This document shows positions 42,371 to 60,874 of a stretch of DNA of 64,000 nucleotides, one piece after another (the stretch's first letter is position 1; every line of letters begins with the position of its first letter). The DNA comes from Pseudomonas sp. GD03919. Its GTDB lineage: Bacteria > Pseudomonadota > Gammaproteobacteria > Pseudomonadales > Pseudomonadaceae. A program made the position numbers and the translations under genes. The notes beneath the pieces are model-generated. The model saw nothing but the letters and a program-made list of their open reading frames with translations. It was not told the origin of the DNA and ran no database searches. Location: the NCBI RefSeq assembly GCF_029814935.1, contig NZ_CP104582.1, positions 2,356,001 through 2,420,000 on the forward strand, given 5' to 3'.

Positions 42371-42444
42371 TCGAGTTGCACCTGCACCCACCCTGTCAAG
42401 TTGGGCTAGCGGTTAGCTGTAGCCTACTTACCGCCAGACCGGCA

Positions 42445-43821: not shown

Positions 43822-43823
43822 AT

Positions 43824-44501
43824 TCACTCCGGAGCATCCATCATGTATCCCATGCCGCGGGCGGTATGAATCAGCTTGAGATCGAAATCGTCATCGATTT
43901 TTGCGCGTAGCCGGCGTACCGCAACCTCAATAACATTGGTGTCGCTGTCGAAATTCATGTCCCAAACCTGAGAGGCAATCAGCGACTTCGGGAGCACCTC
44001 GCCGCGCCGGCGCAGTAGCAGTTCCAGCAGTGAAAACTCCTTCGCGGTCAGGTCAATTCTTTTCCCGCCACGGATCGCACGCCGCTTCATCAGATCGACT
44101 TCCAGATCGGCAATTTTCATGGTGGTCTGCGTCGGCGAACCATTACCTCTGCGCAACAGCGTTCTGACCCTGGCCAGAAGCTCTGAGAAAGCAAATGGCT
44201 TGATCAGGTAGTCGTCCGCACCCAGCTCCAACCCTTTTACGCGGTCTTCCACACCATCGCGTGCCGTCAAGAACAGTACGGGGACGTCTTTTCCTGCTGC
44301 GCGCAACATGCGCAGCACTTCCCAACCGTCCAGCCCAGGCATCATTACATCCAGAATTAGCAGGTCATAGGCTTCGCTAAGTGCATGCTGAAGGGCATCT
44401 GTACCGGTCATAACCCGGTCGACATTGAACCCAGCCTCGGTGAGACCTTGCTGGAGGTACGTACCGGTTTTGGGTTCGTCTTCAGCTACCAGTAGTTTCA
44501 T
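43824..44501 (-). CDS. copR: Heavy-metal response regulator CopR/CusR
   Basis: 225 residues of the OmpR/PhoB type. Receiver domain: [16 protein letters not shown], phosphoacceptor Asp51 in [15 protein letters not shown], and Lys in YLIKPFAF. The C-terminal winged helix contains [20 protein letters not shown] and [18 protein letters not shown]. It should activate copper genes through the TKAC-N5-TGTART boxes in this island, one of which lies 65 bp before its own start. Confidence 0.94.
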
Positions 44502-44565
44502 GTGTGCAGACTCCAAAAGTCGGGTGGCCTGAGTTTGCAGGCAAACCGCGGCCCCAACCAGAAGC

Positions 44566-44580
44566 TTACGAAAATGTAAT
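44566..44580. promoter_or_regulatory. Putative CopR box 1 (copR / 44708 gene)
   Basis: TTACG-AAAA-TGTAAT lies between divergent copR and the small periplasmic protein gene. It matches six other sites in the island. Confidence 0.7.
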
Positions 44581-44707
44581 TCTGACTTCAGCTCACTGAC
44601 AGGGTGGCTTGTCTAGGGTGCAAGCATGAGTACTAGGTTGTGCTCTCGGCCCTCGACAGACCAAAAGCAGAGGTGCCGGCCATAGTTTGCACTGATGGAG
44701 ACTGCCC

Positions 44708-45067
44708 ATGAAATCGCTGAAACCTTTGCTTCTGGTTGGTTCGCTACTGCTGTCTTCCATGGCTTGGGCCGAAGGGGGCAGCGACCGTGTATTCGAGCGC
44801 ATCCAGCAGATGCGCGACAAAGCAGAAGCCGTGCTGATCCAGGCGGAGAAGGCCCCGGTCGGCGAGCGGCATGTGCACATGAAGGAGCATATGAACATGC
44901 TCGAAGACATCATGAGCCAGCTGCACAACGAACATCCCGCGCCAAACATGTCTGCCGAAGAGCATCTGGCCTGGATGGAAAAGCATGACAAGCTGGTAGA
45001 CGACGTGCTGGCTCAAATGATCCGCGAGCACAAGCTAATGATGGCCGACAAAGAGTGCCATCGATAA
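44708..45067 (+). CDS. Small periplasmic copper-island protein with a PtrA-like N-terminus
   Basis: 119 residues. Signal peptide MKSLKPLLLVGSLLLSSMAWA, then AEGGSDRVFERIQQMRDKAE, a module shared with the proteins at 53006 and 61954 of this window. The C-terminal part is helical and rich in His and Met (HVHMKEHMNMLEDIMSQLHN, EEHLAWMEKHDKLVDDV), suggesting periplasmic copper binding. A CopR-type box stands 128 bp upstream and a terminator follows. The exact function is not established. Confidence 0.75.
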   Translation: MKSLKPLLLVGSLLLSSMAWAEGGSDRVFERIQQMRDKAEAVLIQAEKAPVGERHVHMKEHMNMLEDIMSQLHNEHPAPNMSAEEHLAWMEKHDKLVDDVLAQMIREHKLMMADKECHR

Positions 45068-45113
45068 GGATTTTCCCATCTTCCAGGCCTTCCGTGATTG
45101 CTCCTTTGGCCTA

Positions 45114-45141
45114 GCGGCGCCTTTATGGCGCCGTGCTTTTT
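45114..45141 (+). terminator. Intrinsic terminator after the 44708 gene
   Basis: GGCGCC/GGCGCC stem extended by G-C and G-T pairs, with a TTTAT loop, then GCTTTTTC. Confidence 0.8.
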
Positions 45142-45147
45142 CCCAGC

Positions 45148-45162
45148 TGACGCAATTGTAGT
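45148..45162. promoter_or_regulatory. Putative CopR box 2
   Basis: TGACG-CAAT-TGTAGT, 72 bp before the first cupredoxin gene. Confidence 0.6.
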
Positions 45163-45233
45163 TTTGGGGTCAGCGGCCTGGCAGCAAGCGGGGAATAGCA
45201 TGAGATTTCCAGCACCCATCTCGAGGTCTCACC

Positions 45234-45791
45234 ATGAAACGCTTACCCCTTAAACTGCTGATCAGCACTCTGTTCATCAGCACCACCTTTCCGGCATTTG
45301 CCGAGGTCGGCGGCAGTAGCAATGGCATTGGGCAGCAGGCCCAGGCGACGCCAGCGACTCGTACCATCTTGGTAAAGATGGACGACATCAACTACAGCCA
45401 GAAAACGATCGATGTGAAGCCAGGTGAAACCGTGCGCTTCGTTCTGAAGAACGAGGGCGCGTTGATGCACGAGTTCAACATCGGGCAGGCAGCGTCCCAG
45501 CTGGAGCACCAGCGCAAGATGGCGTCCTTGTTCAAGGACGGCACACTGACCCCGACCGGCATGGCCGAGCGCATTGTCTGGCATGAGCGTTATGGCATGG
45601 GAGACTCCAACCCTCCAGGCTATCCGGAAGTCATCAAAGCCAAGCATGACGACCCGAACGCGGTTCTCGTCGAGCCCGGCACAACCAAAGAGTTCGTGTG
45701 GACCTTCCCTAAGGCGGGCAGTTTGAGCTTCGCCTGTACATTGCCTGGGCATTACCAGGCGGGGATGGTCGGTGAGTTTGCTCTGCGTTAG
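45234..45791 (+). CDS. Periplasmic cupredoxin-domain protein, copy 1
   Basis: 185 residues with a signal peptide (MKRLPLKLLISTLFISTTFPAFA). A plastocyanin-like fold with type 1 copper ligands His79 (LMHEFN), Cys168, His173 and Met178 (ACTLPGHYQAGM). A 40-residue insert follows the first ligand (LEHQRKMASLFKDGTLTPTG). It probably binds or shuttles copper in the periplasm. A CopR-type box is upstream and a second, related gene lies downstream. Confidence 0.88.
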   Translation: MKRLPLKLLISTLFISTTFPAFAEVGGSSNGIGQQAQATPATRTILVKMDDINYSQKTIDVKPGETVRFVLKNEGALMHEFNIGQAASQLEHQRKMASLFKDGTLTPTGMAERIVWHERYGMGDSNPPGYPEVIKAKHDDPNAVLVEPGTTKEFVWTFPKAGSLSFACTLPGHYQAGMVGEFALR

Positions 45792-45796
45792 TCCGG

Positions 45797-45838
45797 CATC
45801 GGTGCTACCCGTTGGCCGCGAGCTGGGTAGCACCGATC
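45797..45838 (+). terminator. Hairpin after cupredoxin copy 1
   Basis: ATCGGTGCTACCC pairs with GGGTAGCACCGAT around a GC-rich loop. There is no T tract, so it may be partial. Confidence 0.55.
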
Positions 45839-45847
45839 TGACGAACC

Positions 45848-45862
45848 TTACTGCGATGTAGT
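45848..45862. promoter_or_regulatory. Putative CopR box 3
   Basis: TTACT-GCGA-TGTAGT, 77 bp before the second cupredoxin gene, nearly the same spacing as box 2. Confidence 0.6.
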
Positions 45863-45938
45863 TTTCACGTCAGCGTACCGCCAGCTGCACCTCATTAGCA
45901 TCGGGACTCATCCCTCCTCAACACCTCAGAGGCACACC

Positions 45939-46472
45939 ATGAAACTCAGACCCGCTTTCATAATCACCACCCTTGGCTTGCTGCTCAGTGCTGCCAATGC
46001 GCTGGCCAGCCCGGGCCACAAGAAAGACAGTATTGGGCAACCGGGAGACGGTCAGGCAGTAGATCGCACCATCGAAGTCCGGATGGGGGACATCTTCTTC
46101 GAACCCAAAGCAATGGAGATCAAAGCAGGCGAGACAGTTCGCTTCGTCCTGAAAAATGACGGTGCACTGCTACACGAATTCAATCTTGGCAAAGCGGCAT
46201 CCCATGCCGCGCACCAGAAAGAGATGGCCGCGATGTTTCAGAACGGCACGCTGTCCCCTACAGGTGCACATGACATGAGCAATATGGGCCATGCCATGGG
46301 CGGCATGAAGATGGTCGGTATGGAACACGATGACCCCAACAGTGTTCTTGTCGAACCTGGAGCACGCGAAGAGTTGATCTGGACCTTCTCCGCCGCCACC
46401 GAACTGGAGTTCGCCTGCAATATTCCAGGACATTATCAGTCGGGAATGGTCGGTAAGGTGACCGTACGCTGA
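45939..46472 (+). CDS. Periplasmic cupredoxin-domain protein, copy 2
   Basis: 177 residues, signal peptide MKLRPAFIITTLGLLLSAA. Type 1 ligands His79 (LLHEFN), Cys160, His165 and Met170 (ACNIPGHYQSGM). The insert loop is Met/His-rich (HDMSNMGHAMGGMKMVGMEH), adding possible Cu(I) sites absent from copy 1. Clearly a paralogue of the upstream gene. It is followed by the DUF2933 gene and the P-type ATPase. Confidence 0.88.
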   Translation: MKLRPAFIITTLGLLLSAANALASPGHKKDSIGQPGDGQAVDRTIEVRMGDIFFEPKAMEIKAGETVRFVLKNDGALLHEFNLGKAASHAAHQKEMAAMFQNGTLSPTGAHDMSNMGHAMGGMKMVGMEHDDPNSVLVEPGAREELIWTFSAATELEFACNIPGHYQSGMVGKVTVR

Positions 46473-46551
46473 CGTTTATTGATACTCGCCAACTCCGTCC
46501 AGTCTGAGACACCTATAGTGATCCGGCCGCCATTGAAACGAGGCTATTGTC

Positions 46552-46800
46552 ATGGACCATACCCATCACACCAGTACCACTGAGCCGCCTTTTTGGAAGA
46601 GCAAGATTGGCATTGCGCTGATCATGCTGGCCGTAATCGGCATCTTCTATGTAGCGCGTGAGCATTACGGTCATCTTTCGCAGGCCCTGCCGTACCTCAT
46701 CCTGCTGCTATGCCCGCTGATGCATCTGTTTGGCCACAATCACGGCGGGCACTCCCACTCCAGCAGCACCGCTGTTTCCAAGGACGAAGAAAGGACATAG
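46552..46800 (+). CDS. DUF2933 small membrane protein
   Basis: 82 residues. Two hydrophobic helices (about 17-35 and 44-58) are flanked by His-rich ends (MDHTHHTS and HLFGHNHGGHSHSS). The pattern ALPYLILLLCPLMHLFGH is characteristic of DUF2933, which is found in copper and heavy-metal islands. Its stop lies 5 bp before the ATPase ATG, so the two are co-translated. Confidence 0.82.
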   Translation: MDHTHHTSTTEPPFWKSKIGIALIMLAVIGIFYVAREHYGHLSQALPYLILLLCPLMHLFGHNHGGHSHSSSTAVSKDEERT

Positions 46801-46971
46801 ATCGCATGCAAAAGACCTCCTGCCATCATGACCAGGATCATTCACATAACTCGCACGCCCACTCCGAGAGCCAGCGCGACCCGGTGTGTGGCATGGAGGT
46901 CAAACCTGATGGCCCTTATCGCGAGAGCTTTGAAGGGAAGGCCTATCATTTCTGCAGTGCGAAGTGCCTAG

Positions 46972-47824
46972 GGTCTGTTGCCGTTTCGCGCTAACCAATT
47001 GATTTATAAGAGCAAGCTCGTATCGTTGAAGCTCTAACCCGACATCGATACGAGCTTGCAATGCCCCGATTACTACTCAACGACGAGCATTGGTCGAAGC
47101 TGCGGGAAATTCTCCTGCACAAGGCCATCTACAACAAGCGTGATCTACGAATGACCGTGGAGGGCATGCTGTACCGCATGCGCACGGGATGTCCCTGGAG
47201 AGACCTGCCCAAGGAGTTTGGTAACTGGAATAAGGTCTACAAACGCTTCAACGCATGGTCTGCTGCCGGCAAATGGTTCAAGGTCTTCAAGATGCTGGTG
47301 GAGGAGCCCGACATGGAGTGGGTGTTCATTGATGGCAGCTATGCCAAGGCTCACCAGCACAGCGCAGGTGCTGCCAGCGCAAACGATGAAGCTATAGGGA
47401 AAAGCCGAGCCGGCAATACCAGCAAGATTCATCTGGCGGTGGACGCCCATGGCTTGCCCATCGAGTTTGAAATCACGGGAGGCCAAATCAATGACTGCAC
47501 TCAGGCACCCGCATTGATTTCCAAGCTCCCAGCGGCAGAAACCATCGTTGCGGATAAGGGCTATGACAGCGAGAGAATCCGAGAGCAAGTTGAGCGACAA
47601 GGGGCCAAGGCCGTGATCCCGAGCAAGCGTAACTCTGTGAAAGGCAACGCGAATCTGGACAGAGGTCTGTACCGCAATCGCCACCTGGTGGAAAACGCTT
47701 TCGCCCGGCTGAAGCACTACCGGGCGGTGGCCTCTCGATTCGACAAGCTCAAGAGAAATTACGAGAGCGTGGTGGCCATGGCCTGCGCCTTCCTATGGTT
47801 GCCCATGTAAAACGGCAACAGGCC
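46972..47824 (+). mobile_element. IS5-family insertion sequence, intact, with CTAG duplication
   Basis: 853 bp bounded by GGTCTGTTGCCGTTT and AAACGGCAACAGGCC (imperfect inverted repeats), flanked by CTAG at 46968-46971 and 47825-47828. Removing it and one CTAG restores the ATPase frame. A deleted copy lies at 30593-30809. Confidence 0.92.
47061..47810 (+). CDS. IS5-family transposase
   Basis: 249 residues with an N-terminal DUF4096-type domain ([37 protein letters not shown]). The DDE catalytic residues lie in [27 protein letters not shown] and [17 protein letters not shown]. Full length and apparently active. Confidence 0.93.
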
Positions 47825-50128
47825 CTAGAGAAATTCCAAGCAGATCCTCATCAGTACATGAGCCATCAGTCTCATGGGGAGCATCACCAGCACGCGACTC
47901 CAGCACCCACATCGACACCTGTAGGTGCTGAATACACCTGCCCGATGCATCCAGAAATCCGTCAACCGGCTCCCGGAAACTGCCCGATCTGCGGGATGAC
48001 GCTGGAACCTGTCATCCCGGAGCTGGAAGAGGAGGAAAATCCAGAGCTGAAGGACTTCTCGCTGCGGTTCTGGTGGACCCTACCGTTGACCGTCATCGTG
48101 ACCGTATTGGCGATGGCCGGCCATTCCTTGCAACTGTTTCATGGCACGACCCAGAACTGGGTCGAGCTGGCTCTGGCGACGCCCGTGACGCTATGGGGTG
48201 GCTGGGTATTCTTCACCCGCGGCATTGACTCCATCCGCCACCGCAGCCCCAACATGTGGACCCTGATCGGTTTGGGAACGGCCGCTGCCTACCTCTACAG
48301 CGTGGCCGCTACCTTGGTTCCGCAGTGGTTTCCGGCGGCTTTTGCCCAGGACGGACGTATCGGCGTCTATTTTGAAGCAGCCGCGGTGATTATCTCACTC
48401 ACGCTGTTGGGCCAAATGCTCGAACTCAAGGCCCGCTCGCAGACTTCGGCAGCCATCAAGTCACTGCTGAGGCTGGCACCAAAGACTGCGCGTCGCATCA
48501 AGCCCGATGGCCAGGAAGAAGATATTCCGCTGACACATGTCCATCAGGGCGACCACCTACGTGTCCGGCCGGGAGAGAAAGTCCCGGTGGACGGTACGGT
48601 TCTAGAGGGGGAGAGCGCCGTCGACGAGTCGATGCTTACCGGAGAACCGTTACCCGCGACCAAGCGGGTAGGGGATGCCCTTATCGGTGCCACCCTGAAC
48701 ACCCACGGCAGCCTGGTGATGGAGGCGCAGAAGGTCGGTGCCGAGACCATGCTGTCGCAGATCGTTCAGATGGTGGCCAGAGCCCAACGTTCCAAGGCCC
48801 CCATGCAGCGTATGGCTGATGCGGTGGCAGGGTATTTCGTGGTCGGGGTGATCCTGATCGCGATTCTGACCTTCTTCGGCTGGGGGCTATTAGGGCCGGA
48901 ATCAGGCTGGGTATTTGGCCTGATCAATGCGGTGGCGGTGCTAATCATTGCGTGTCCCTGCGCTCTGGGTCTGGCAACCCCGATGTCCGTCATGGTTGCG
49001 ACTGGCAAGGCCGCTAGCAGCGGTGTGTTGTTCCGCGATGCCAGCGCCATCGAAAATCTATGCAAGATCGACACGCTCATCGTCGACAAGACTGGAACCC
49101 TGACTGAGGGGCGTCCCGTATTTCATAGTGCGGAAGGGACAGGCGGTTACGACTCCAATGAAGTGCTGCGCCTGGCTGCTAGTCTCGACCAGGGTAGTGA
49201 GCACCCGCTGGCTCATGCCATCGTCGATCATGCGCGCGGTCAGGGCATTGCACTGGTCAAACCGGACACTTTCGAATCTGGCTCGGGTATTGGTGTGCGC
49301 GGCCAGGTCGATGACCATCAGCTGCAGCTCGGCAACACCGCACTGATGGACGAGGCGGGCGTCGATATTACCCCGCTGCGCAATCGCGCCGAGCAACTGC
49401 GTCTGGAAGGCATCAGCATCATCTATTTGGCCGTTGATGGTCGCCTGGCGGGACTCCTGGCCGTTTCCGATCCGATCAAGCCTACTTCTCAACAGGCTGT
49501 CTCCAAGCTTCAAAGCGAAGACGTAAAGGTCATCATGGCCACTGGTGATGGCCTCACCACAGCAAGAGCCGTGGCGAAGCAGCTCGGAATCGAGGAAGTG
49601 CATGGTGAGGTCAAACCGCAGGATAAGGAGAAACTGGTCGCCGATTTGCAGGGCTATGGCCGTCGTGTCGCCATGGCGGGTGACGGCATCAACGATGCGC
49701 CCGCCCTGGCCAGGTCTGACGTAGGTATCGCCATGGGCACCGGTACCGATGTGGCGATGAACAGCGCCCAAGTGACGCTGGTCAAGGGAGATCTGATGGG
49801 CATCCTGCGAGCGCGCACCCTGTCAGTGGCAACCGTGAAAAATATGAGGCAGAACCTCGCCTTTGCGTTCCTCTACAACGCGATGGGAATCCCGCTAGCA
49901 GCGGGGCTGCTGTACCCGCTGACGGGGCATCTTCTGTCGCCCTTGATTGCTGCGCTGGCGATGAGTGTCAGCTCGGCGTCGGTGGTCTTCAATGCTCTGA
50001 GGTTGAAATCAACGGACATCGGATAGGCTTCCATACCACCGACCAGGTGATTATTCAGAAGCGCATCTGACCGGAAAATGCCGTACGGTAGTTTCCGGTC
50101 CGACCTATCTGTCGCAACACATACGGGC

Positions 50129-50159
50129 TTGACCTTGCCATCGTGTCAAGGTCGATGCT
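50129..50159 (+). promoter_or_regulatory. CueR-type promoter of copZ
   Basis: TTGACC and GATGCT are separated by 19 bases, the long spacer of MerR-family promoters. The spacer carries the dyad ACCTTG...CAAGGT, as in CueR-controlled copA/copZ promoters. It lies about 45 bp before the copZ start. Confidence 0.8.
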
Positions 50160-50203
50160 GTCCGTGCGGTAACTTGAGCCGCGGACGAAATGAGGTGAAA
50201 GAC

Positions 50204-50404
50204 ATGTTTAGTCTGAGTGTTGCGGGGATGGGCTGTGGCAGTTGCGTGAGCAAAATCACGAAGGCCATTCAAGCTCTGGATCAGGATGCACGAGTAGAAG
50301 TGGATCGAGCGGCCGGCAAGGTCACCGTTGAGAGCACAGAAAGTGCCGAATCGATCCGCGAACTCATCCAGGAGCTTGGCTATTCGGCCCAGGTCAGCGC
50401 TTGA
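50204..50404 (+). CDS. copZ: Copper chaperone CopZ-like (HMA domain)
   Basis: 66 residues, a single heavy-metal-associated domain. The Cu(I) site is GMGCGSC (CxxC), followed by the conserved helix ESIRELIQELGY. GAGGTG precedes the ATG at 50204, and a CueR-type promoter is upstream. It buffers cytoplasmic Cu(I) and delivers it to the ATPase. A palindrome over its stop codon separates it from the convergent bufferin operon. Confidence 0.88.
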   Translation: MFSLSVAGMGCGSCVSKITKAIQALDQDARVEVDRAAGKVTVESTESAESIRELIQELGYSAQVSA

Positions 50405-50414
50405 GCGCTGACCT
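50391..50414. terminator. Palindrome over the copZ stop codon
   Basis: AGGTCAGCGCT and AGCGCTGACCT are exact complements around TG. It sits between convergent genes; without T tracts, termination is probable but not certain. Confidence 0.6.
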
Positions 50415-50423
50415 GCTATCCCA

Positions 50424-50738
50424 CTAAATCTCCAGTTCTGAGAGCTCTTTTAGCCCTGGGATACTGGTGACCTCGTTGGTCATACCTTCTGAACCATCTC
50501 GGCCGCGAAGCCAGTTTGAGTGATCGCCTGGCTCGCGCATTTCCAGCGTGTCATAGGAGTACCGCTTGCGCTTGAACAGGCTTTTCAATGCAGCGAACTC
50601 GTGGCTTTTTTCGTCTTCTATGCCGACGACTTCTCCTGCAAGCCGCTCCCAGTGACCAACGCCGTCGGCCAGCATTGCCTGATAGGTCTCCGGGTCAAGC
50701 AAGGCTTGCTGTTTGAAATGAATGATGCGGTGAGTCAT
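50424..50738 (-). CDS. Uncharacterised protein, last gene of the bufferin-type operon
   Basis: 104 residues starting MTHRIIHFKQQALLDPETYQ. No signal peptide, membrane helix or cysteine, and rich in charged residues, so it is probably cytoplasmic. I do not recognise a family. It lies 50 bp after the DUF2063 gene on the same strand with no terminator between, hence likely co-transcribed. The ATG at 50738 is preferred over the longer frame because the residues before it are not protein-like. A role in bufferin production or copper response is inferred only from position. Confidence 0.6.
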   Translation of the reverse strand: MTHRIIHFKQQALLDPETYQAMLADGVGHWERLAGEVVGIEDEKSHEFAALKSLFKRKRYSYDTLEMREPGDHSNWLRGRDGSEGMTNEVTSIPGLKELSELEI

Positions 50739-50788
50739 AGAAGCGCTCGGAGTGGCCAAAGAGAGAGCGCTAGCCTAAAGGTTCCGGG

Positions 50789-51583
50789 TCATTCGTGTAA
50801 TAGCTGGCCGCGCTTTAGCAAACCGTCGTTGACCCACAACTTCAACCAGGTCGCGGCTTGCAAGGGAGCTTGCTCGCCATGCGTGGCGCTCAACGACTCG
50901 CAGAGTTCAGCGAACGATCCGCCCTCGATGAGAAACTGCAATGCCGAAGCCTCCGCTGGCTCCAGGCTCCGGTACTGGCAGACGAGTTCATGACGCCAAA
51001 CAAGACAGGCTAGGTTCGTAGGCAGGCGGGTAACATCAGGCAGCAAGCTGCCGGACTTGGCGGCTTTCCACAACTCCAGCGTGTTGTACTGCAGCTGCAA
51101 CCACCGGGCAGATGCAGTCAGGGAAACCCTGAGTGAAATCCAGTCTTCAGCCGAAAAATCACTCATGGTCTCCAGCGAAAGCGCTTCGACATCCTGAGCG
51201 TCGAAGGCCAGTGTAAAGGCCCATTCCAGTTCCGCGAGTTCGCGCATCGGCGATAGTTGGGGTTCTTCGACGTAGCTGCTAATGAACTCGGGCAGCTTCT
51301 CGCCCAGCCAGCGAATGCTGAAATGTCGTGGTGGCCAGGCGGCCAAGTAGGCCAGTGCGAGCTGCTCGAATGATTCGTTGCCGATCCAGTGAAGCAGGGC
51401 AGGGAAGTCTTCTCGCAAGACCGCAAGCAGGCGCGAACGGTAAGCGTTGTGGTAGATCTGCAGGCCTTCGAGAGCACTCAGCGCTGTGCTACCTCGGATC
51501 TGCTGCAAAAGCTCGTTGGAGGGCAGGGCACTGTCACCTGTCAGGTAAGTTTCAAATGCAGTCTGTAGGGCGATCAGGCTCAA
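50789..51583 (-). CDS. bufC: DUF2063-family protein (BufC-like RiPP partner)
   Basis: 264 residues. The N-terminal DUF2063 domain (about 5-95) shows LEGLQIYHNAYRSRLLAVLR, ALLHWIGNESFEQLALAYLA and PPRHFSIRWLGEKLPEF. The C-terminal half is a helical domain. In bufferin and related systems this protein works with the DUF692 enzyme to bind or modify the precursor peptide. The start is a TTG (51583) whose bases overlap the upstream stop as TTGA, so translation is coupled. Confidence 0.85.
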   Translation of the reverse strand: MSLIALQTAFETYLTGDSALPSNELLQQIRGSTALSALEGLQIYHNAYRSRLLAVLREDFPALLHWIGNESFEQLALAYLAAWPPRHFSIRWLGEKLPEFISSYVEEPQLSPMRELAELEWAFTLAFDAQDVEALSLETMSDFSAEDWISLRVSLTASARWLQLQYNTLELWKAAKSGSLLPDVTRLPTNLACLVWRHELVCQYRSLEPAEASALQFLIEGGSFAELCESLSATHGEQAPLQAATWLKLWVNDGLLKRGQLLHE

Positions 51584-52416
51584 GGGGTGGCCCCCGATAT
51601 CACAGATTTGGCGATAGCACGGGCATGTGCTAATTCGGACAACAGCTCTTCCAGCGGCGGAAACTGGTCATCCCGCTCGATCAAGGTCGATGTCGGGCCC
51701 AAGTAGCTCAAAGTCTTGCTGTAGAGAGACCAAACCGGATCAGCGATGGGCTGGTCATGGGTGTCGATGAGGTACTGCCCGTAATCGCTGTGCCCGGCCA
51801 GGTGAATTTGCCGAATCCGCTCGTGCGGCAATTCCATGATGAACTGCCAAGGGTCGAAACCCTGGTTGCGCGAACTGACGTAGACGTTGTTCACGTCGAG
51901 AAGCAGCTCGCACCCGGTCAGGTAACTGAGCTCCGAGAGGAACTGAGACTCGCTCATGCTGGATGTTGTCCACTGCACGTAGGAGGAAACGTTCTCCAGC
52001 ACGATGGGACGTTCCAAAACATCCTGCACCAAGCGCACCCGGGCCGCGACATGCAGCAGGCTCTCCTGGGTAAACGGCAGCGGTAGCAGATCGTGAAGTT
52101 GATGGGCGTTGCCTCGACTCCAGCACAGGTGATCAGACACCCACTGAGGCTGCACCCGATCCGCCAGCTGCTTGAGCTGTCGTAGGTAGTCTATGTCCAA
52201 GGCATGTGAGCCGCCAATCGAAAGAGATACTCCGTGCATCACCAGGGGGTAGTGCTCGCCGATCGCATCAAGGAAGTAGAGAGCCTTGCCGCCCTCCACC
52301 AGGTAATTCTCGGAAATGATCTCGAACCAGTCGACCGCAGGCCGTTCCTCCAGGATCTGCCGGTAATACTCGTTACGAAGGCCAAGACCGAAACCCAGAG
52401 TTTTGCGCTTACTCAT
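51580..52416 (-). CDS. bufB: DUF692-family multinuclear iron enzyme (BufB/MbnB-like)
   Basis: 278 residues, TIM-barrel DUF692 family, which oxidises cysteines of RiPP precursors (MbnB in methanobactin, BufB in bufferins). Metal-binding segments are visible: VMHGVSLSIGG, VSDHLCWS, VLENVSSY, LLDVNNVYVS and IHLAGHSDYG, each with His, Asp, Glu or Asn ligands. The ATG at 52416 has GGAG seven bases before it; the ten upstream residues are not conserved. It lies 44 bp after the precursor gene and overlaps the DUF2063 gene. Confidence 0.92.
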   Translation of the reverse strand: MSKRKTLGFGLGLRNEYYRQILEERPAVDWFEIISENYLVEGGKALYFLDAIGEHYPLVMHGVSLSIGGSHALDIDYLRQLKQLADRVQPQWVSDHLCWSRGNAHQLHDLLPLPFTQESLLHVAARVRLVQDVLERPIVLENVSSYVQWTTSSMSESQFLSELSYLTGCELLLDVNNVYVSSRNQGFDPWQFIMELPHERIRQIHLAGHSDYGQYLIDTHDQPIADPVWSLYSKTLSYLGPTSTLIERDDQFPPLEELLSELAHARAIAKSVISGATP

Positions 52417-52460
52417 TCGAGACTCCAGCAGGGGAGTGGCATGCACTCCCCTGAACCGCC

Positions 52461-52721
52461 TTATTCGCTGGTTTTGCCACCGGCTTCGTCACATTTGGTC
52501 TGGGTCATCAACTTGAACCCTTGGCCTTTGCATTCGCCTTGGCCTTTGCAGTCGTTTTTCGCGGTCATGCAGTCGTTCTGCCCTTTGCAACCATTGATCC
52601 CGAAGCACTTCACTTCTGCTGCTTTGGTTTCCTGAGCAGCCTGGACGGGCAGGGTGGAGAACAGGCTGGCGGCCACCAGAGCCAAGGCGGCACCGGTAGC
52701 TACGTTGGATTTGTTCGACAT
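52461..52721 (-). CDS. bufA: Bufferin-type RiPP precursor (DUF2282, BufA-like)
   Basis: 86 residues. A signal peptide (ATGAALALVAASLFSTLPVQA) sends the peptide to the periplasm. The core has six cysteines: 39, 45, 51, 58, 64 and 77. KCFGI, GQNDC, CKGQ and TKC correspond to the four family cysteines of DUF2282 precursors; Cys45 and Cys64 are extra, inside repeated CKGQ-type segments. Members of this family become copper-binding peptides after the DUF692 enzyme alters conserved cysteines. A CopR-type box lies 165 bp upstream. Confidence 0.88.
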   Translation of the reverse strand: MSNKSNVATGAALALVAASLFSTLPVQAAQETKAAEVKCFGINGCKGQNDCMTAKNDCKGQGECKGQGFKLMTQTKCDEAGGKTSE

Positions 52722-52885
52722 AGTGGCTATCTCTCTTGATTGTTTGATGGTCGCGATCCGTCGGTGCGAATGAACGAGTTAGCTCAGGCATTGCTACCGA
52801 TCAGGCCCATGGAATCCGCAAGGCTGCGCGGGCAGGAAGACAGTACCGAGCCTTCAGGAGGGCCTACAAGAAAGAAATAGCAAAC

Positions 52886-52900
52886 TGACAGAACTGTAAT
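52886..52900. promoter_or_regulatory. Putative CopR box 4 (bufferin operon / 53006 gene)
   Basis: TGACA-GAAC-TGTAAT lies between the divergent bufferin-type operon and the PtrA-like gene and could serve both. Confidence 0.7.
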
Positions 52901-53005
52901 GTTCGGATCAGGTTGCTGACAGGCCCTCTTAGTTAACGTGACATCGAGCCTAAAGCTCGGCCTCTGCAGTTGCAGGGACCACTTAACTTACGAGGAATAC
53001 CCAAA

Positions 53006-53212
53006 ATGAAATCGATCAAAACCCTGTTTGTAGTTGCTGCCCTGAGTGTTTCCAGCCTGGCGATGGCCGAAGGCGGTGCTGATCGCACGTTTGCACGCAT
53101 GGAGCAGGCACGCCAGACGTCTCTGGAGGCCTACCGGGTGGCCCAGCAGCAGAAAGTTGAGGCTCCTGTAGCCAGCAGTCCAACCGAGCAAGCAGAGCAC
53201 ACCAACTGCTGA
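53006..53212 (+). CDS. PtrA-like small periplasmic protein
   Basis: 68 residues. Signal peptide MKSIKTLFVVAALSVSSLAMA followed by AEGGADRTFARMEQARQ, matching the N-terminal domain of the copper-inducible Pseudomonas protein PtrA. The tail ends in HTNC, a possible metal or disulfide site. CGAGGAAT precedes the ATG. It has a CopR-type box 106 bp upstream. PtrA is linked to copper tolerance and type III secretion control in P. aeruginosa; which role applies here is unknown. Confidence 0.8.
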   Translation: MKSIKTLFVVAALSVSSLAMAEGGADRTFARMEQARQTSLEAYRVAQQQKVEAPVASSPTEQAEHTNC

Positions 53213-53223
53213 AGTCATCTACC

Positions 53224-53238
53224 TTACAGAAATGTAAT
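53224..53238. promoter_or_regulatory. Putative CopR box 5 (copABC operon)
   Basis: TTACA-GAAA-TGTAAT, a palindromic core TTACA/TGTAA, 162 bp before the multicopper oxidase. Confidence 0.75.
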
Positions 53239-53399
53239 CACCGGATGGTTGAGATATGGCAGTTTCATACTGCTTGGTGTCAGGGGGAACTTGCGCAGCA
53301 CGCAAAGCTTGAAGATCAAATCTCCCGACACTGGAGCAGTCAATGAACCCGAGACCGGATGCATATCACCGGCTCATCTGACGGATTGGACATAACGGC

Positions 53400-55196
53400 A
53401 TGCAAAGCAAAACCACAAGACGTACTTTCGTCAAAGGCCTCGCCGCCGCCGGTATTCTCGGCGGCATGGGCATGTGGCGCACGCCGGTCTGGGCGGTGAA
53501 CAGCCCCGGCCAGCCCAACGTACTGACTGGTAACGAATTCGACCTATTCATCGGTGAAACCCCGGTGAACATCACCGGCGCAGCGCGCACGGCCATGACC
53601 ATCAACGGCTCGCTCCCTGGGCCGATTCTTCGTTGGCGCGAAGGCGATACCGTCACATTGCGCGTGCGCAACCGCCTCAAGGAGGACACCTCCATCCATT
53701 GGCACGGCATCATCCTGCCGGCGAACATGGATGGTGTTCCTGGCCTGAGCTTCCATGGCATCGCCCCTGACGGCATGTATGAGTACAAGTTCAAGGTCAA
53801 CCAGAACGGTACCTACTGGTATCACAGTCACTCGGGGCTGCAGGAGCAGGTCGGCGTATACGGCGCGCTGGTCATCGATGCCAAGGAGCCCGAGCCCTTC
53901 AGTTACGACCGTGATTACGTCGTGTTGCTGAGCGACTGGACGGATGAAAATCCAACGCGGGTACTGGCCAAGCTCAAGAAACAGTCGGACTACTACAACC
54001 AGCACAAACGCACCGTTGGTGACTTCATCGATGACGTAAGCGAGATGGGTTGGTCCGCCGCCGTAGCCGACCGTAAGATGTGGGCCGAAATGAAGATGAG
54101 CCCGACTGATCTCGCCGACGTCAGTGGCTACACCTACACCTACCTGATGAACGGCCAGGCACCTGATGGCAACTGGACCGGCATATTCAAACCGGGCGAG
54201 AAGATTCGTCTGCGTTTCATCAATGCCTCGGCCATGACGTACTTCGATGTGCGCATCCCAGGCCTGAAGATGACTGTGGTTGCGGCCGATGGTCTGCACG
54301 TCAAACCGGTCAGCGTCGACGAGTTCCGTATCGCCGTGGCCGAGACCTACGACGTGATCATCGAACCAGACAGCGAACAGGCCTATACCGTGTTTGCCCA
54401 ATCCATGGACCGCACTGGCTATGCGCGCGGCACCCTTGCGGTACAGGAAGGGTTGAGTGCACCGGTACCAAGCCCTGACCCGCGCCCACTGATTGCCATG
54501 GGTGACATGGGCATGGACCACGGCAGCATGGGCGGCATGGATCATGGGAGCATGGCCGGGATGGATCACGGCAGTATGTCGGGCATGGATCATGGGAGCA
54601 TGCAGGGTGGCATGGCCGGCATGGATCACAGCCAGATGGCGGGAATGGATCATTCGGGCATGGCAGGTGCCATGCAGGCACACCCAGCCTCAGAGACCAA
54701 CAACCCGCTGGTCGATATGCAAACCATGACACCAATGCATAAGTTGGACGACCCAGGTATTGGTTTGCGAGACAACGGCCGACGCGTCCTCACGTACTCT
54801 GACCTGCGCAGCACCTTCCCTGATCCGGACGGGCGTGAGCCAAGTCGCACCATCGAGCTGCACCTCACCGGGCATATGGAGAAATTCTCCTGGTCCTTCG
54901 ATGGAATCAAGTTCTCTGACGCCGAGCCTCTGCGCCTCAAGTACGGCGAGCGTGTTCGCATCACGCTGGTCAACGACACCATGATGACTCACCCGATCCA
55001 TCTTCATGGCATGTGGAGTGATCTGGAGGATGCGAACGGCAATTTCCTGGTGCGTAAACACACCATCGACATGCCGCCAGGTTCCAAGCGCAGCTATCGA
55101 GTGACTGCCGATGCGTTGGGTCGTTGGGCCTATCACTGCCACCTGTTGCTCCACATGGAAATGGGCATGTTCCGTGAAGTTCGTGTGGATGAGTAA
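53400..55196 (+). CDS. copA: Periplasmic multicopper oxidase CopA/PcoA
   Basis: 598 residues. A twin-arginine signal (TTRRTFVKG) exports the folded enzyme. Copper ligands are His100 and His102 in IHWHG, HSHS near 143, HPIHLHGMW near 535 and HCHLLLHMEMGM from His579. Between about residues 370 and 420 lies a run of MDHGSM/MDHSQM repeats that binds extra copper. It oxidises Cu(I) to Cu(II). The following genes form the rest of the operon. The symbol copA here is the PcoA-type oxidase, not the ATPase. Confidence 0.95.
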   Translation: MQSKTTRRTFVKGLAAAGILGGMGMWRTPVWAVNSPGQPNVLTGNEFDLFIGETPVNITGAARTAMTINGSLPGPILRWREGDTVTLRVRNRLKEDTSIHWHGIILPANMDGVPGLSFHGIAPDGMYEYKFKVNQNGTYWYHSHSGLQEQVGVYGALVIDAKEPEPFSYDRDYVVLLSDWTDENPTRVLAKLKKQSDYYNQHKRTVGDFIDDVSEMGWSAAVADRKMWAEMKMSPTDLADVSGYTYTYLMNGQAPDGNWTGIFKPGEKIRLRFINASAMTYFDVRIPGLKMTVVAADGLHVKPVSVDEFRIAVAETYDVIIEPDSEQAYTVFAQSMDRTGYARGTLAVQEGLSAPVPSPDPRPLIAMGDMGMDHGSMGGMDHGSMAGMDHGSMSGMDHGSMQGGMAGMDHSQMAGMDHSGMAGAMQAHPASETNNPLVDMQTMTPMHKLDDPGIGLRDNGRRVLTYSDLRSTFPDPDGREPSRTIELHLTGHMEKFSWSFDGIKFSDAEPLRLKYGERVRITLVNDTMMTHPIHLHGMWSDLEDANGNFLVRKHTIDMPPGSKRSYRVTADALGRWAYHCHLLLHMEMGMFREVRVDE

Positions 55197-55208
55197 AGGA
55201 GATTTCTG

Positions 55209-55523
55209 ATGAGCACTTTTATGAAGCGAAATGCCCTGGCTGGCAGCGCAGTCATGTTCAGCCTATTGGCTGTCCTGCACGCACCGGTTTCGTTGGCAGG
55301 TGAGGGGCACAGTGAGCACGAACAACATGCTGCCGAGTCGGCTGTGCCCAAGACCGCCAGTGGCAATCACGCAGATCAGTCGAAGGATAAGGCGGCTGGC
55401 CAGCATATGGATCATGGCGCCATGGATCACGGAGACATGAAGCATGACGGCATGAATCACGAAAACATGATGGATAAGCATGGCGGCACCGAAGCCGAAG
55501 CAGGTTCGAACCATGACCACTAG
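55209..55523 (+). CDS. Met/His-rich small periplasmic protein
   Basis: 104 residues: signal peptide to about residue 30 ([13 protein letters not shown]), then a low-complexity tail rich in His, Met and Asp ([20 protein letters not shown]). It is typical of copper-sequestering proteins between copA and copB. It starts 13 bp after copA, and its last 11 bases overlap the copB start. Confidence 0.75.
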
Positions 55524-56604
55524 GTTTTCACGTCCATCTCTCTTGGCGCTGGCTGTGTCGCTGAGTGCGTTCAGCGGCGGCGTTACTTTGGCTGCGGAAG
55601 AAATGGATCATTCGGCAATGGGGCACGGCACCATGTCGATGGACCATAGCCAGATGAGCCACGGCGCTACCAAAGCGCAGATGGAGGGCATGGATCACAG
55701 CAAGATGGACCATGGTGCCATGCAGGGTGGTTCGGGCAGCATGGATCATAGCCAGATGGGCCACGGCCAGAGCCAAGAGAAGGCCCAGGCTATGGATCAC
55801 AGCAAGATGGGGCATGGCGCCATGCAAGGACAGATGGAGGGCATGGATCATTCAAAGATGAACCATGGCTCCGCTGAAGCCCCGAGAACCACCAGCCGTA
55901 CGCCGATTCCCGTTCTGACGGATGCTGATCGCCAAGCGGCTTTCCCGCCATTACCTGGCCACAAGGTTCACGACAGCGCCATCAACAGTTTTTTCCTGCT
56001 CGATCAGCTCGAATACCAGGACGCAGATGAGGGCAGCACCCTGGCCTGGGATGCGTCGGGCTGGGTAGGCGGTGATATCAACCGGGTCTGGTTCCGCTCC
56101 GAAGGCGAGCGTACCAACGGCGTGACCGAGGATGCTGAATTACAGCTGCTGTACGGCCGCTCGATCGGCCCTTGGTGGGATGTCGTCGCGGGCGTTCGCC
56201 AGGACTTCAAACCGGAGTCGCCGCAGACTTGGGCCGCCTTCGGTATCCAGGGCATGGCGCTTTACGCCTTTGAGGCCGAAGCCACGGCCTTCGTCGGCGA
56301 GAATGGCCAAACTGCTGCCCGACTGGAGGGCGAGTACGACATTCTGCTGACCAACCGGCTGATTCTCCAGCCAACTGCCGAAATGAACTTCTACGGCAAG
56401 AACGATCCTGAGCGAGGTGTGGGGTCTGGGTTGGCAAATACCGAGCTCGGCTTGCGTCTGCGTTACGAGATTGTCAGGCAGTTTGCCCCCTATATCGGGG
56501 TTTCCTGGAGCCGCTCCTATGGCAACACGGCAGACATGGTGCGCGACGAGGGCGGTGATGTAGACGAGGCGCGTTTTGTCGCCGGTATCCGGATGTGGTT
56601 TTGA
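55513..56604 (+). CDS. copB: Outer membrane copper resistance protein CopB/PcoB
   Basis: 363 residues. Signal peptide, then a Met/His-rich region (about residues 27-120) with repeated MDHSKM and MDHSQM units, then the CopB beta-barrel domain ([19 protein letters not shown] to the C-terminal [24 protein letters not shown]), ending in the aromatic residue of outer membrane proteins. The ATG at 55513 lies inside the end of the previous gene. It sequesters copper at the outer membrane. Confidence 0.94.
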
Positions 56605-56613
56605 GAACCTGAC

Positions 56614-57456
56614 ATGAAAAGAACAATTAAAACTTTGGTGGCGGCCGGCGTGGTCGGTAGCACAGCTGTCCTGGCCGGCGCCTACTTTGGCGTGGTCAAC
56701 GTGGGGGCCGACGATCCCCATTTTCCTGCAGTGCATGCGTTTCTCACGATGGCCCGTGACCGCTCTATCGAAGTCCGTTCGCGGGACATCGAGGTTCCCA
56801 ACCTGGATGATCAAGCTCTTATTCGCGCCGGTGCGGGCAACTACAACTCCATGTGTATCGGCTGTCATTTGGCGCCAGGTGTGGCGGAGACCGAGCTAAG
56901 CCAATCGCTTTATCCTGCGCCCCCCAACCTCGCCAAAATCGGTCTCGATGGCAATCCGTCAGCAGCGTTCTGGGTGATCAAGCATGGCATCAAGGCAACG
57001 GGTATGCCTGCGTGGGGCAAGAGCATGGGCGATGAGTACATCTGGGGCATGGTTGCCTTCCTCAACCAACTGCCGACGATGGATGCCAAGCAATACCAAA
57101 CACTCGTCGCATCCAGTGGCGGCCATCAGCACGGTGGTGGGGAAACGCAGATGCATAACCATGAAGGACAGCACGGCGACAACAAGCCTGGCCATCATGA
57201 CAATAGTGGCGGTGGCGATGACCATCATGGATCAGGTGATGCTGGAGAGCCTGGTCATCACGATGCCGCGGCTACGGATAGCGAGGGTGGCTCCGCACCT
57301 AAGGCAGGTCACCATTCGGATATGAGTGGCGATGACCACCATGCTGGGGATGAGGCGTCGTCCAACGGAGGTGATCATCACGCCGAGCAGGCTCCGAACG
57401 CCTCGCCCAAGACCCACACCCACGCCGATGGCAAAGAGCACGTACATGAAAGCTAA
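56614..57456 (+). CDS. Class I cytochrome c with a long His-rich tail
   Basis: 280 residues. An N-terminal signal/anchor helix, then a cytochrome c domain (about 60-165) with the haem site C81-IG-C84-H85 and axial Met131 in GMPAWGKSMGDEYIWG. Residues about 170-280 are a low-complexity tail with many HH and HD pairs, likely to bind copper. It may pass electrons linked to copper oxidation. It starts 9 bp after copB and overlaps the DUF411 gene by 11 bp. Confidence 0.85.
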   Translation: MKRTIKTLVAAGVVGSTAVLAGAYFGVVNVGADDPHFPAVHAFLTMARDRSIEVRSRDIEVPNLDDQALIRAGAGNYNSMCIGCHLAPGVAETELSQSLYPAPPNLAKIGLDGNPSAAFWVIKHGIKATGMPAWGKSMGDEYIWGMVAFLNQLPTMDAKQYQTLVASSGGHQHGGGETQMHNHEGQHGDNKPGHHDNSGGGDDHHGSGDAGEPGHHDAAATDSEGGSAPKAGHHSDMSGDDHHAGDEASSNGGDHHAEQAPNASPKTHTHADGKEHVHES

Positions 57457-57889
57457 ATATCTGGCCTTACTGGCCGCTCTCTCCGTCACGTCTGCGGTTC
57501 AAGCAGCTGATGCCCTGACGATTGATGTCCATCGTGATGCCAATTGCGGATGTTGCAAGAAGTGGATTTCACACCTCGAAGCGAATGGCTTCAAAGTCGT
57601 CGACCATGTCGAAAGCAACATGACAGCAGTGAAGCAAAGTCTGGGCGTCGCGCCGCGGTTGGCGTCTTGCCACACCGCGCTGATTGACGGCAAGTTCGTC
57701 GAAGGTCATGTACCGGCGGCTCAGGTCATCGAACTCACCAAGCGCGATGATCTGCTGGGCATCGCTGTTCCCGGGATGCCGGCGGGCTCCCCCGGCATGG
57801 AAGTCGATGGCGTACAGCATGCCTACCAGGTCATTGGCTTGACCAAGACGGGTTCTGATCAGGTCGTTGCAGAATATCCCACCCAGTAG
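57446..57889 (+). CDS. DUF411 metal-binding periplasmic protein
   Basis: 147 residues: signal peptide MKAKYLALLAALSVTSAVQA, then the DUF411 domain with CGCCKKW near residue 34 and LASCHTALIDGKFVEGHVPA near 80, followed by GIAVPGMPAGSPGME. The Cys motifs probably bind Cu(I). The start lies inside the end of the cytochrome gene. It is the last gene of the operon on this strand. Confidence 0.88.
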   Translation: MKAKYLALLAALSVTSAVQAADALTIDVHRDANCGCCKKWISHLEANGFKVVDHVESNMTAVKQSLGVAPRLASCHTALIDGKFVEGHVPAAQVIELTKRDDLLGIAVPGMPAGSPGMEVDGVQHAYQVIGLTKTGSDQVVAEYPTQ

Positions 57890-57958
57890 TATTGCCTGCC
57901 CGCACGGCTGCTTGCGTCTAGAGTGGCCGATTCTTTTTCATACATCCTTTAACCTAAG

Positions 57959-57981: not shown

Positions 57982-58936
57982 AAGGGCTGTCTCCAAACCA
58001 AAGGAGCACTACGAGGGGACAGCAGGACCACGGCGCGAGCGGGCAATCAACCCGCTCGCGCACCGAGGTTAGAGAACTTCCAGCGGGTATTCGACAATGA
58101 AGCGGAACTCATCCAGATCCGACTCGAAGTCGGTGGCGCGAGTCGTGGCTTGTCGAATGCGAAAGGACATGTCCTTCAACGACCCAGACTGCACAACGTA
58201 CTTGGCCTCGATGTCCCGCTCCCAGCGCTTCTGGTTGGTCAACGGATCGCCGTTGTCATCACGGCGCATATAGACTTCGTTGGCGTTGCTGTAGTCGGCA
58301 TCCCAGCCCTGGGCATATCGAGTCATGAAGCTCAATCCAGGCACACCGAAAGACTCCATATCCAGGTCGTAGCGCACTTGCCATGACTTCTCCTTCGGCG
58401 AGTTGAAGTCGCTGTACTGGATGGAGTTGTCGAGGTAGATGGAGTCCGATTGGCGCAAGTAATCGAAGTCATCATCGCCATTGTTGCGCTGGAGACCCAC
58501 CAGCACTGTGTGAGCGCCGAATTGGATGCCGACATTGCCGCTCCAGATGTTGTTATCGAAGCTCCCGAGGAGCTGCTTCCCTTCATCGACCGCCTTGTAG
58601 TAGTTCAGCCCGCCGATCAAGGCGACATCGTCCGCAAGCGGGTAGCTCAGCGTGGTGCCCGCATAATATTGATTCCAGGCATCCTTGAGGCGGCTGGTGT
58701 AGAGACTAAAGCCGACGTTGTCATTAAGCGTGTAATCACCACCGAAATAGGCGATCCATGGCGAGTCCACTTCGCCCGCGTAGAAGGTAGCGAAGCCGTC
58801 GCGCATGCTGCTGGTATTGGGTTGGCTCATCGAGTGGAGGCGACCGCCCTGAAGCGTAACCGCTCCACAAACCACACCTTCAAGTGAAGTGAAGGCCCAC
58901 AGATGCTGTGCTCCCGATTTTCCTGGAGCCCAGCCC

Positions 58937-59296
58937 ATGATGCGTCCCGACCCCAAGGTCAAAGCCGTTTACCTTTACCCCAAGCCGGTCGATTTCCGCA
59001 AATCCATCAACGGTCTGGCCGCCTTGGTCGAGTTGGATATCAAGGTGGCGGTGTTCGACCCGGCGTTGTTCGTTTTTCTCAACCGCACGCGCAACCAAGT
59101 GAAAATTCTGTATTGGCATCGTAACGGTTTCTGTTTGTGGCTCAAGCGCTTGGAGGCCGAGCGGTTCAAGACCAAACCGGATGCCGGTGACGAAGCGATC
59201 GAGCTGACGGTGCGGGAATTGAATCAGTTGCTGGAGGGCATCGACCTCTGGGGCAATCAACCGCACAAGGTGCTGACACCACGTTTCGTGACTTGA
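58937..59296 (+). CDS. tnpB: IS66-family accessory protein TnpB
   Basis: 119 residues starting MMRPDPKVKAVYLYPKPVDFR, preceded by CTGGAG. This is the IS66 Orf2 protein needed for transposition. tnpC follows by 18 bp. The tandem ATG at 58937 matches the start of its relative at 31756. Confidence 0.92.
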   Translation: MMRPDPKVKAVYLYPKPVDFRKSINGLAALVELDIKVAVFDPALFVFLNRTRNQVKILYWHRNGFCLWLKRLEAERFKTKPDAGDEAIELTVRELNQLLEGIDLWGNQPHKVLTPRFVT

Positions 59297-59314
59297 GCCG
59301 GTATAATCCATGGC

Positions 59315-60874
59315 ATGATTTCCGTGCCTGAACCCCTTCCTGACGACCCCGCAGCGCTCAAGCAATTGCTCGCTGAGGTGCTGTCTTCTGCACAGAAATT
59401 GGCCAAGGACAAGGACGGGCAGATCGAGCACCTGCGCGAACAAAACGCACTGCTGATCCAACGCCTGTTCGGTCGCAAATCCGAGCAGACGGCCGATCCT
59501 GACTCGCCGCAGTTGGAGATTTTCAACGAAGCCGAAAGCCTCACCGAAGCCGCGCCCGAAACTACTGCCGAAGAGATCGAGGAAGACGTCGTCGCGCCGG
59601 TCAAACGTCGTGGCAAGCGTAAACCACTGCCGGCTGAGTTGCCGCGCGTTGAGGTTATCCATGAGCTGCCCGAGCACGAGCTGACCTGTGCCTGCGGTGC
59701 TTGCAAGCAAGTGATCGGTGAGGAAACCAGCGAACAGCTGGAAATCATCCCGATGCAGGTGCGGGTCATCCGCCATATCCGTAAGACCTACGCCTGCAAA
59801 GCCTGCGAAGCCGCCCCGATCACCGCGGACAAGCCCGCGCAACTGATTGAGAAAAGCCTGGCTACGCCCAGCGTGTTGGCGATGCTGCTGACCACCAAGT
59901 ACGCCGACGGCATCCCGCTGTACCGCTTCGAGAAAGTCCTCCATCGCCATGGCATCGACATCCCGCGGCAGACCCTGGCTCGCTGGGTGATCCAATGCGG
60001 TGACTATCTGCAACCCTTGCTCAACTTGATGCGCGACACGCTGCTGGATTATCCGGTGTTGCACTGCGACGAAACCCGGGTGCAGGTGCTCAAAGAACCG
60101 GGGCGCGACCCGAGCAGCCAATCCTGGATGTGGGTGCAAACCGGCGGCCCGCCAGACAGGCCGGTGGTCCTCTTCGACTACACAACCAGTCGTGCGCAGG
60201 ACGTACCCTTGCGCCTGCTCACCGGCTATTGCGGTTATTTAATGACCGACGACTACTCCGGCTACAACGCCGTGGCCGCGCAAGCGGGCATCGAGCGGCT
60301 GGCCTGCTGGGCCCATGCGAGGCGCAAATTTATCGAGGCGCAGAAGGTGCAGCCTAAAGGCAAAACTGGGCGAGCCGACATGGCCCTGAACCTGATCAAC
60401 AAACTCTACGGTATCGAGCGCGAGCTAAAAGACGCCTGCGACGCTGAACGCCTGAGCGCCCGCCAACAGCGCAGTCAACCCGTGCTCGACCAGCTCAAAG
60501 CCTGGCTCGACAAAGCTCAGCTGCAGGTCGCCGGACAGACCTCCCTGGGCAAGGCGGTGAACTACTTGGCCAACAACTGGAGCCGCCTGGAGCGCTACAT
60601 CGAAGGCGGAAACCTGCCCATCGACAACAACCGCGCCGAGAACGCCATCCGCCCGTTCGTCATCGGCCGCAAAAACTGGCTGTTCAGCGACACACCCAAA
60701 GGCGCCACGGCCAGCGCACAGATCTATAGTCTGATCGAAACCGCCAAAGCCAATGGCCAAGAGCCCTACGCCTACCTGCGCCACATCCTTGAGCGCCTGC
60801 CTCAGGTCAACAGCGTCGAAGGCTACGAAGCGCTGTTGCCGTGGAACTGCTCGCCAGCGCCAGCTGCTTCCTGA
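59315..60874 (+). CDS. tnpC: IS66-family transposase TnpC
   Basis: 519 residues. An N-terminal coiled region with [19 protein letters not shown], a zinc-binding segment ([22 protein letters not shown]), then the DDE domain: [24 protein letters not shown] and the C-terminal [24 protein letters not shown] motif (here [18 protein letters not shown]). Full length and intact. Confidence 0.95.

Follow-up and report, generated by a model that had tools for sequence, protein, structure and literature searches.

A Buf2-type bufferin operon in a mobile Pseudomonas copper island and its probable place in the CopRS module

Bufferins are peptides whose role in buffering copper has come to light only recently, and a bufferin operon lying among copper-resistance genes raises the question of whether it takes part in the copper response of its neighbours or simply travels with them. 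We address this question for a 64,000-nucleotide stretch of Pseudomonas sp. GD03919 (hereafter the window; all plain coordinates are window positions), on whose minus strand bufA, bufB, bufC and a fourth open reading frame (ORF), ORF4, follow one another, reading down from 52721. Our favoured answer, to which we assign a probability of about 0.72, is that this Buf2-type operon forms part of a CopRS module for copper resistance carried by a mobile Pseudomonas island. An earlier note on this DNA had proposed a bufferin-type operon with a CopR-type box in a copper island, and family models, synteny and conservation bear this out; the DUF2282 label and the special six-cysteine form that it added did not hold. 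A bufferin lineage fixed in mobile CopRS islands, on chromosomes and plasmids, would join the acquired copper resistance of Pseudomonas. This kind of operon is already known, and the part worth following is its linkage to the cop genes, the CopR-type box, a Cys–Met site in the precursor, and ORF4.

Two groups of Buf2 operons in the Pseudomonadaceae

The first gene, bufA (52461–52721, minus strand), encodes an 86-aa Buf2 (BufA2) bufferin precursor that scores 92.3 bits with the NCBIfam BufA2/Buf2 model NF050166 (curated cut-off 60). It is followed on the same strand by bufB (51580–52416), encoding a 278-aa MNIO (DUF692) bufferin maturase (NF050167, 374.6 bits, cut-off 310; PF05114 also matched), and by bufC (50789–51583), encoding a 264-aa DUF2063 partner of PME type 1 (PF09836, 72.3 bits, cut-off 27.2). 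Thus, the genes of the cognate MNIO and its DUF2063 partner adjoin the precursor gene. The matches of bufB to the MbnB model (62 bits, cut-off 325) and of bufC to the HvfC model NF050145 (30.7 bits, cut-off 142) both stay under the cut-offs. The start of bufC overlaps the end of bufB, and 50 nucleotides separate bufC from ORF4 (50424–50738, 104 aa). In the gap between bufA and bufB (52417–52463) a stable hairpin is predicted (−22.2 kcal/mol, z −2.8); it might keep the expression of bufBC below that of bufA. The order of the precursor, DUF692 and DUF2063 genes between copZ and copA–copB, as described in the earlier note, was confirmed, with a ptrA-like gene preceding copA.

To place this operon among its relatives, we compared two sets of loci. 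The cop set comprises nine places with BufB at 78–88% identity found in a survey of 298 genomes of the family, the locus of genome G232 (BufB 100%, no ORF4 match) and 26 loci from named genomes found via ORF4; with the window it amounts to 37 loci, many of them copies of a single mobile island. The core set consists of 31 distinct loci, 30 of them matches to the BufA2 model and one from G269. The Buf2 operons of the Pseudomonadaceae fall into these two groups, cop and core. In 36 of the 37 cop loci a ptrA-like gene and copA adjoin bufA, which is divergent from them; in the remaining one (L088), where the contig begins nearby, the two genes were not found. None of the 28 core loci with 14–16 kb of sequence has a match to copA, copB or ptrA-like genes, and the CopR- or CopS-like matches near nine of these 28, at 24–35% identity, are taken for other two-component systems.

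The same division is seen in the BufB tree built from 53 distinct sequences, where all 23 cop rows form one group with a support of 100/100 (the tree is midpoint-rooted, one core row, L074, has a very long branch, and a short core row, L015, was excluded). Beyond the family, no cop-type BufB was found in 369 class-wide genomes, where identity does not exceed 61%, the window's own genome excepted. Core and cop-type operons occur together in at least seven genomes (G286, G284, G279, G232, G094, G070, and G086), which offers a natural comparison. The literature searched, which covered few subscription journals, contained no description of a Buf2 lineage linked to CopR.

The groups also differ in the precursor. 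In the cop loci the residue after the third cysteine is Met (36 of 37) or Ala (one); in the core loci it is Lys (29 of 31) or Ala (two). Among the best 120 of 201 database relatives, 115 fit the motif pattern and five do not; in those 115 the third cysteine is followed by Lys in 94, by Met in 17, and by another residue in four, and all 17 Met relatives are within the closest 21 matches. Phe after the first cysteine occurs in all 37 cop loci, and 15 of the same best 120 relatives combine it with Lys after the third cysteine; hence, this Phe is not specific for the cop group. Gln after the fourth cysteine is found in four cop loci. The difference between Cys–Met and Cys–Lys lends itself to testing which of the cysteines are modified by the MNIO.

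The CopR-type box and the control of bufA

The 284-bp intergenic region between bufA and the divergent ptrA-like gene (53006–53212, plus strand; NF041599, 83.5 bits) contains, at 52885–52900 of the plus strand, the sequence CTGACAGAACTGTAAT, an exact match to the Pseudomonas aeruginosa CopR consensus CTGACAn5GTAAT, as quoted in a part of PMC11195947. With one mismatch allowed, this consensus matches the window four times, where 0.37 matches are expected and none of 100 shuffles gives more than two; the match at 56462, within copB, is probably due to chance. The palindrome TKACAnnnnTGTAAT has seven matches at five places against 0.46 expected, a control that is post hoc, as the palindrome was derived from two window sites. 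With at most one mismatch it is present in all 36 complete bufA/ptrA-like intergenic regions of the cop group, including the window (33 exact), and a second site upstream of copA, located in the window by motif scans at 53223–53238 (plus strand), is likewise found in 36 of 36 loci (35 exact). Passages of PMC12428095 give TGACA-N4-TGTCA as the published repeat, with footprints reaching −185 from start codons.

Conservation in 13 chosen sequences extends to both sides of the box. Towards bufA, the 62 nucleotides following it (52823–52884, minus strand) contain 21 invariant columns and two short elements kept at a fixed spacing in 12 of the 13 sequences, and only two of the 82 columns of the leader beyond this block are invariant. 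Towards the ptrA-like gene, 30 of 60 columns are invariant. We read this pattern as putative promoters in both directions, the block on the bufA side being the candidate promoter of bufA.

Several observations weigh against CopR control of bufA. No box was found within 400 nucleotides upstream of bufA in any of the 31 distinct core loci, which remain of 38 rows once seven repeats are set aside, so CopR control is not a trait of the Buf2 family. The distance from the box is tighter to the ptrA-like gene (104–106 nucleotides in 33 of 36 loci) than to bufA (131–185 nucleotides in 35 of 36), and given this closer register and the higher conservation of that side, the ptrA-like gene may be the main client of the box. 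In one locus (L099) an insertion of about 3 kb separates bufA from the box; in another (L089) it is the ptrA-like side that is separated. A scan of 50300–53450 for sigma-70-like promoters yielded no match; the cop promoters of Pseudomonas putida likewise lack typical boxes, according to a section of PMC12428095. Finally, a related MNIO peptide of Microbulbifer showed no copper induction in the results available from PMC12538549.

These observations could be explained if the Buf2 operon stood outside the CopR response, the box serving the ptrA-like gene alone and bufA merely travelling with the island, either constitutive or answering to zinc, oxidative or thiol stress. We regard this as unlikely, although it is the strongest competitor: the box register, the negative scan for a standard promoter and the absence of the box from core operons favour it, as does the similarity of the sites recognised by CopR, CusR and CzcR (PMC11195947, in part), whereas the conserved block towards bufA, whose spacing is kept in 12 of 13 sequences, and the presence of bufA next to the box in every complete cop-group locus argue against it. 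The box that the earlier note had placed upstream of bufA is therefore real, but it is common to the ptrA-like gene and in closer register with it.

More CopR-type sites, at 44566–44580, 61591–61605, and 62023–62038, are located next to copR/ptrA-like and ahead of a PtrA-N/DUF2790 gene. These additional sites suggest a CopR regulon across the island.

The precursor, its maturase and the predicted modification

The precursor has six cysteines, at positions 39, 45, 51, 58, 64, and 77, and three copies of the CKGQ motif, at Cys45, Cys58, and Cys64; its N-terminus is signal-like as judged by eye. In an alignment of 41 rows all six cysteines occupy family columns, four of them invariant and two conserved in at least 90% of rows, so that the conserved cysteines are present, as the earlier note had supposed. 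Its count of six and its two CKGQ repeats at Cys45 and Cys64 were also correct; its division into four family cysteines and two additional ones was not, and the repeat at Cys58 had been missed. According to a portion of PMC12452194, six cysteines are found in 90% of Buf2 bufferins; hence, the six-cysteine form is not special. The idea that it defines a clade was rejected on the same ground, six cysteines from the motif onward being present in all 31 core precursors as well (counts of seven, eight or ten in five core rows are inflated by open frame ahead of the start codon, and one row counted with five is a motif missed by the search pattern). Taken on models and alignment, the assignment of the precursor to Buf2 within the known bufferin family is well supported.

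That the precursor is instead a DUF2282 (Buf1-type) bufferin carrying two extra cysteines, as the earlier note had it, is very improbable. The spacing of its KC-aromatic-G and NDC elements is presumably reminiscent of Buf1, and most of its close homologues bear precomputed labels of the newer DUF2282 model PF10048.16, which means that the boundary between Buf1 and Buf2 varies with the model version. However, the NF050166 score is far above the cut-off, all six cysteines fall in family columns, Asp250 of BufB is as in the Cys–Lys enzymes, and PF10048.14 matches neither the precursor nor anything else in the genome, though it does match the Caulobacter vibrioides control; DUF2282 membership was rejected on this last result.

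In the MNIOs of the Cys–Lys group, Asp replaces Phe250 of FonB (PMC12668002, in part). BufB contains Asp249–Asp250 within ERDDQ, Asp250 taking the position of FonB Phe250 directly after the proposed catalytic Asp249, and ERDD is present in the BufB of all 37 cop loci; the solved relative 3bww has ERDF at this site. BufB and 3bww have the motifs HG, SDH, EN, LDVNN, AGH, DTH, and ERD in common, which we take to hold the metal ligands. For BufC, a comparison with solved structures gave nothing beyond one chance-level match.

According to part of PMC12452194, in Buf1 the central cysteines are modified and a disulfide joins the first and the last one. The predicted modification sites of the window peptide are Cys45, Cys58, and Cys64, each within CKGQ. 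Under the favoured reading, rising periplasmic copper would cause CopR to bind the intergenic box, so that both bufA and the ptrA-like gene would be transcribed more strongly. The precursor would be made with a Sec-type signal peptide, BufC would hold BufB to it, and BufB would convert the three cysteines to 5-thiooxazoles ahead of export; a disulfide would form between Cys39 and Cys77, and the mature product, of about 6.1 kDa, would bind periplasmic Cu(I) alongside CopA and CopB. For residues 29–86, taken as the mature form on a guessed cleavage site, the calculated unmodified monoisotopic mass is 6103.74 Da; at four H lost per thiooxazole (PMC12538549), three such groups would lower it by 12.09 Da and four by 16.13 Da, and a disulfide by another two H. 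In this scheme the thiooxazole chemistry, the disulfide, copper binding and export are proposed by analogy with published relatives, and we infer the regulation of the peptide, namely the induction of bufA by CopR, and the exact sites modified.

The least probable alternative, that the island carries the operon as an inert passenger and the modified peptide is no longer made, can be drawn from the cut or split ORF4 in several copies and an internal stop in one copy of bufC (L084), but we consider it highly improbable, given that the bufA, bufB and bufC frames are all open in the window and that substitutions in bufA and bufB are mostly silent (ratio of non-synonymous to synonymous substitution rates, dN/dS, of 0.03–0.06 in comparisons with dS above 0.4).

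A more specific version of the favoured reading may be put forward tentatively, and we would sooner bet against it than for it: a distinct, horizontally moving Buf2 lineage in the CopRS module, with a two-way CopR promoter in common with ptrA-like/copA, a third site changed from Cys–Lys to Cys–Met and, in a sub-lineage, the gain of ORF4 as a dedicated fourth protein acting with BufABC. Three thiooxazole sites plus a Cys–Met pair would then perhaps create a different copper site.

The mobile island, ORF4 and known systems

The operon is embedded in a set of copper genes. On the plus strand, divergent from bufA, the ptrA-like gene is followed by copA (53400–55196; periplasmic multicopper oxidase; PF07732, PF07731, PF00394), a small ORF, copB (55480–56604; outer-membrane copper resistance protein; PF05275, 310 bits), a cytochrome c gene and a DUF411 gene. 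On the other side, the end of ORF4 is 19 nucleotides from that of the convergent copZ-like gene for an HMA chaperone (50207–50404, plus strand; PF00403, 62.1 bits), beyond which, to the left, are genes for a P-type ATPase, a DUF2933 protein, two cupredoxins, a second ptrA-like protein, and CopRS. A hairpin at 50385–50430, covering the convergent ends (−24.4 kcal/mol, z −4.35 for minus-strand RNA), is a possible two-way terminator, and the terminator scan made no call there. The earlier note was also right that no DoxX-type gene is adjacent: none was detected in a Pfam scan of 19 window proteins, a subset of the ORFs.

The genome has two copies of this copper island, at 42440–57899 of the window and at G000:C1:543578–558180, with 99.9% identity; the copies differ at four of 4532 and 11 of 10076 bases, with no differences in the buf region. 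The buf region is also found, at 86.6–87.5% identity, on six Pseudomonas plasmids, two of them typed as conjugative. One plasmid, pKF715B, has the same gene order; an IS5-like transposase gene separates bufA from the ptrA-like gene there, and copZ is preceded by two other genes. Elsewhere in the window island, the copper P-type ATPase gene is interrupted near its beginning by an IS4/5-family transposase gene (47061–47810, within 46972–47823); in the copy at 543.6–558.2 kb this insert is absent and the frame is open over 835 codons. At 58889–60874, a pair of ORFs resembling an IS66-type transposase by eye splits a putative porin gene (58069–58962, 60823–61464). A few kb ahead of the second island copy (G000:C1, about 531.8–539.9 kb; L004) there is a distinct pair resembling CopR and CopS (56% and 34% identity) with a weak CopZ match (36%).

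ORF4, with which the range given in the earlier note begins though it is not mentioned there, has no family match in the NCBIfam or Pfam scans; 21 relatives were found by a single-sequence search and 27 by a profile search, and the predicted structural model is unusable (mean confidence, pLDDT, 44.6). A profile scan of genome contigs identified 26 ORF4 loci, all with bufA, bufB and bufC adjoining, which represent one mobile island and not 26 independent events. At BufB identity of at least 92%, ORF4 is present at 14 of 15 places (split in G179); in G232, the one place without it, BufC is no more than 80% identical. The nine cop loci at 78–88% BufB identity do not have ORF4. It is full-length and gapless in 19 of the 26 loci, with 10 distinct sequences free of internal stops, and cut, split or gapped in the others. 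Compared with the two most distant intact copies, dN/dS is 0.11 and 0.14; the closest copies are too alike for this measure, and one copy (L086) gives 1.4 on six changes. A relative of 47% identity in G024 (L066, 7654–7968) lies in 16 kb of sequence that gave no match to BufA, BufB or BufC, the adjoining ORFs resembling restriction-type genes by eye. ORF4 likely forms the end of the buf unit in one sub-lineage and is taken for a useful yet dispensable gene.

In gene content the window resembles the GI-7-type CopRS-controlled copABZ islands, having CopRS, copZ, copA, copB, a P-type ATPase and two cupredoxins in common with them; the available part of the GI-7 description does not name bufferin genes (PMC8872213). 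Methanobactin MbnB is likewise an MNIO-superfamily enzyme acting on cysteines of a copper peptide, but MbnB/MbnC constitute a separate family with another partner, chemistry and role (copper uptake). The EGKCG captophorins (fontiphorin, oxazolin, bulbicupramide) have an MNIO–PME1 pair like that of the window, as described in parts of PMC12668002 and PMC12538549, and by analogy with them 5-thiooxazole is expected in the window peptide; they differ in that their repeats are Lys–Cys and their specificity site holds Phe (ERDF in 3bww), where the window has Cys–Lys and Asp. Buf1 (DUF2282), exemplified by Caulobacter BufA1B1C1, is similar in its MNIO and DUF2063 partner, its cysteine-rich, signal-bearing precursor and its copper context (PMC12452194, in part); its precursor has four cysteines and belongs to another family, whose model PF10048.14 does not match the window precursor. 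The closest correspondence is to the Buf2 bufferins (Buf_6/12Cys, NF050166), with which the window has in common the precursor model, the six cysteines, the signal-like stretch, and the order in which the MNIO and DUF2063 partner genes follow (PMC12452194, in part). From these it differs in that no DoxX domain was found, and in its position in a cop island, its CopR-type box, the Cys–Met at the third cysteine and the additional ORF4.

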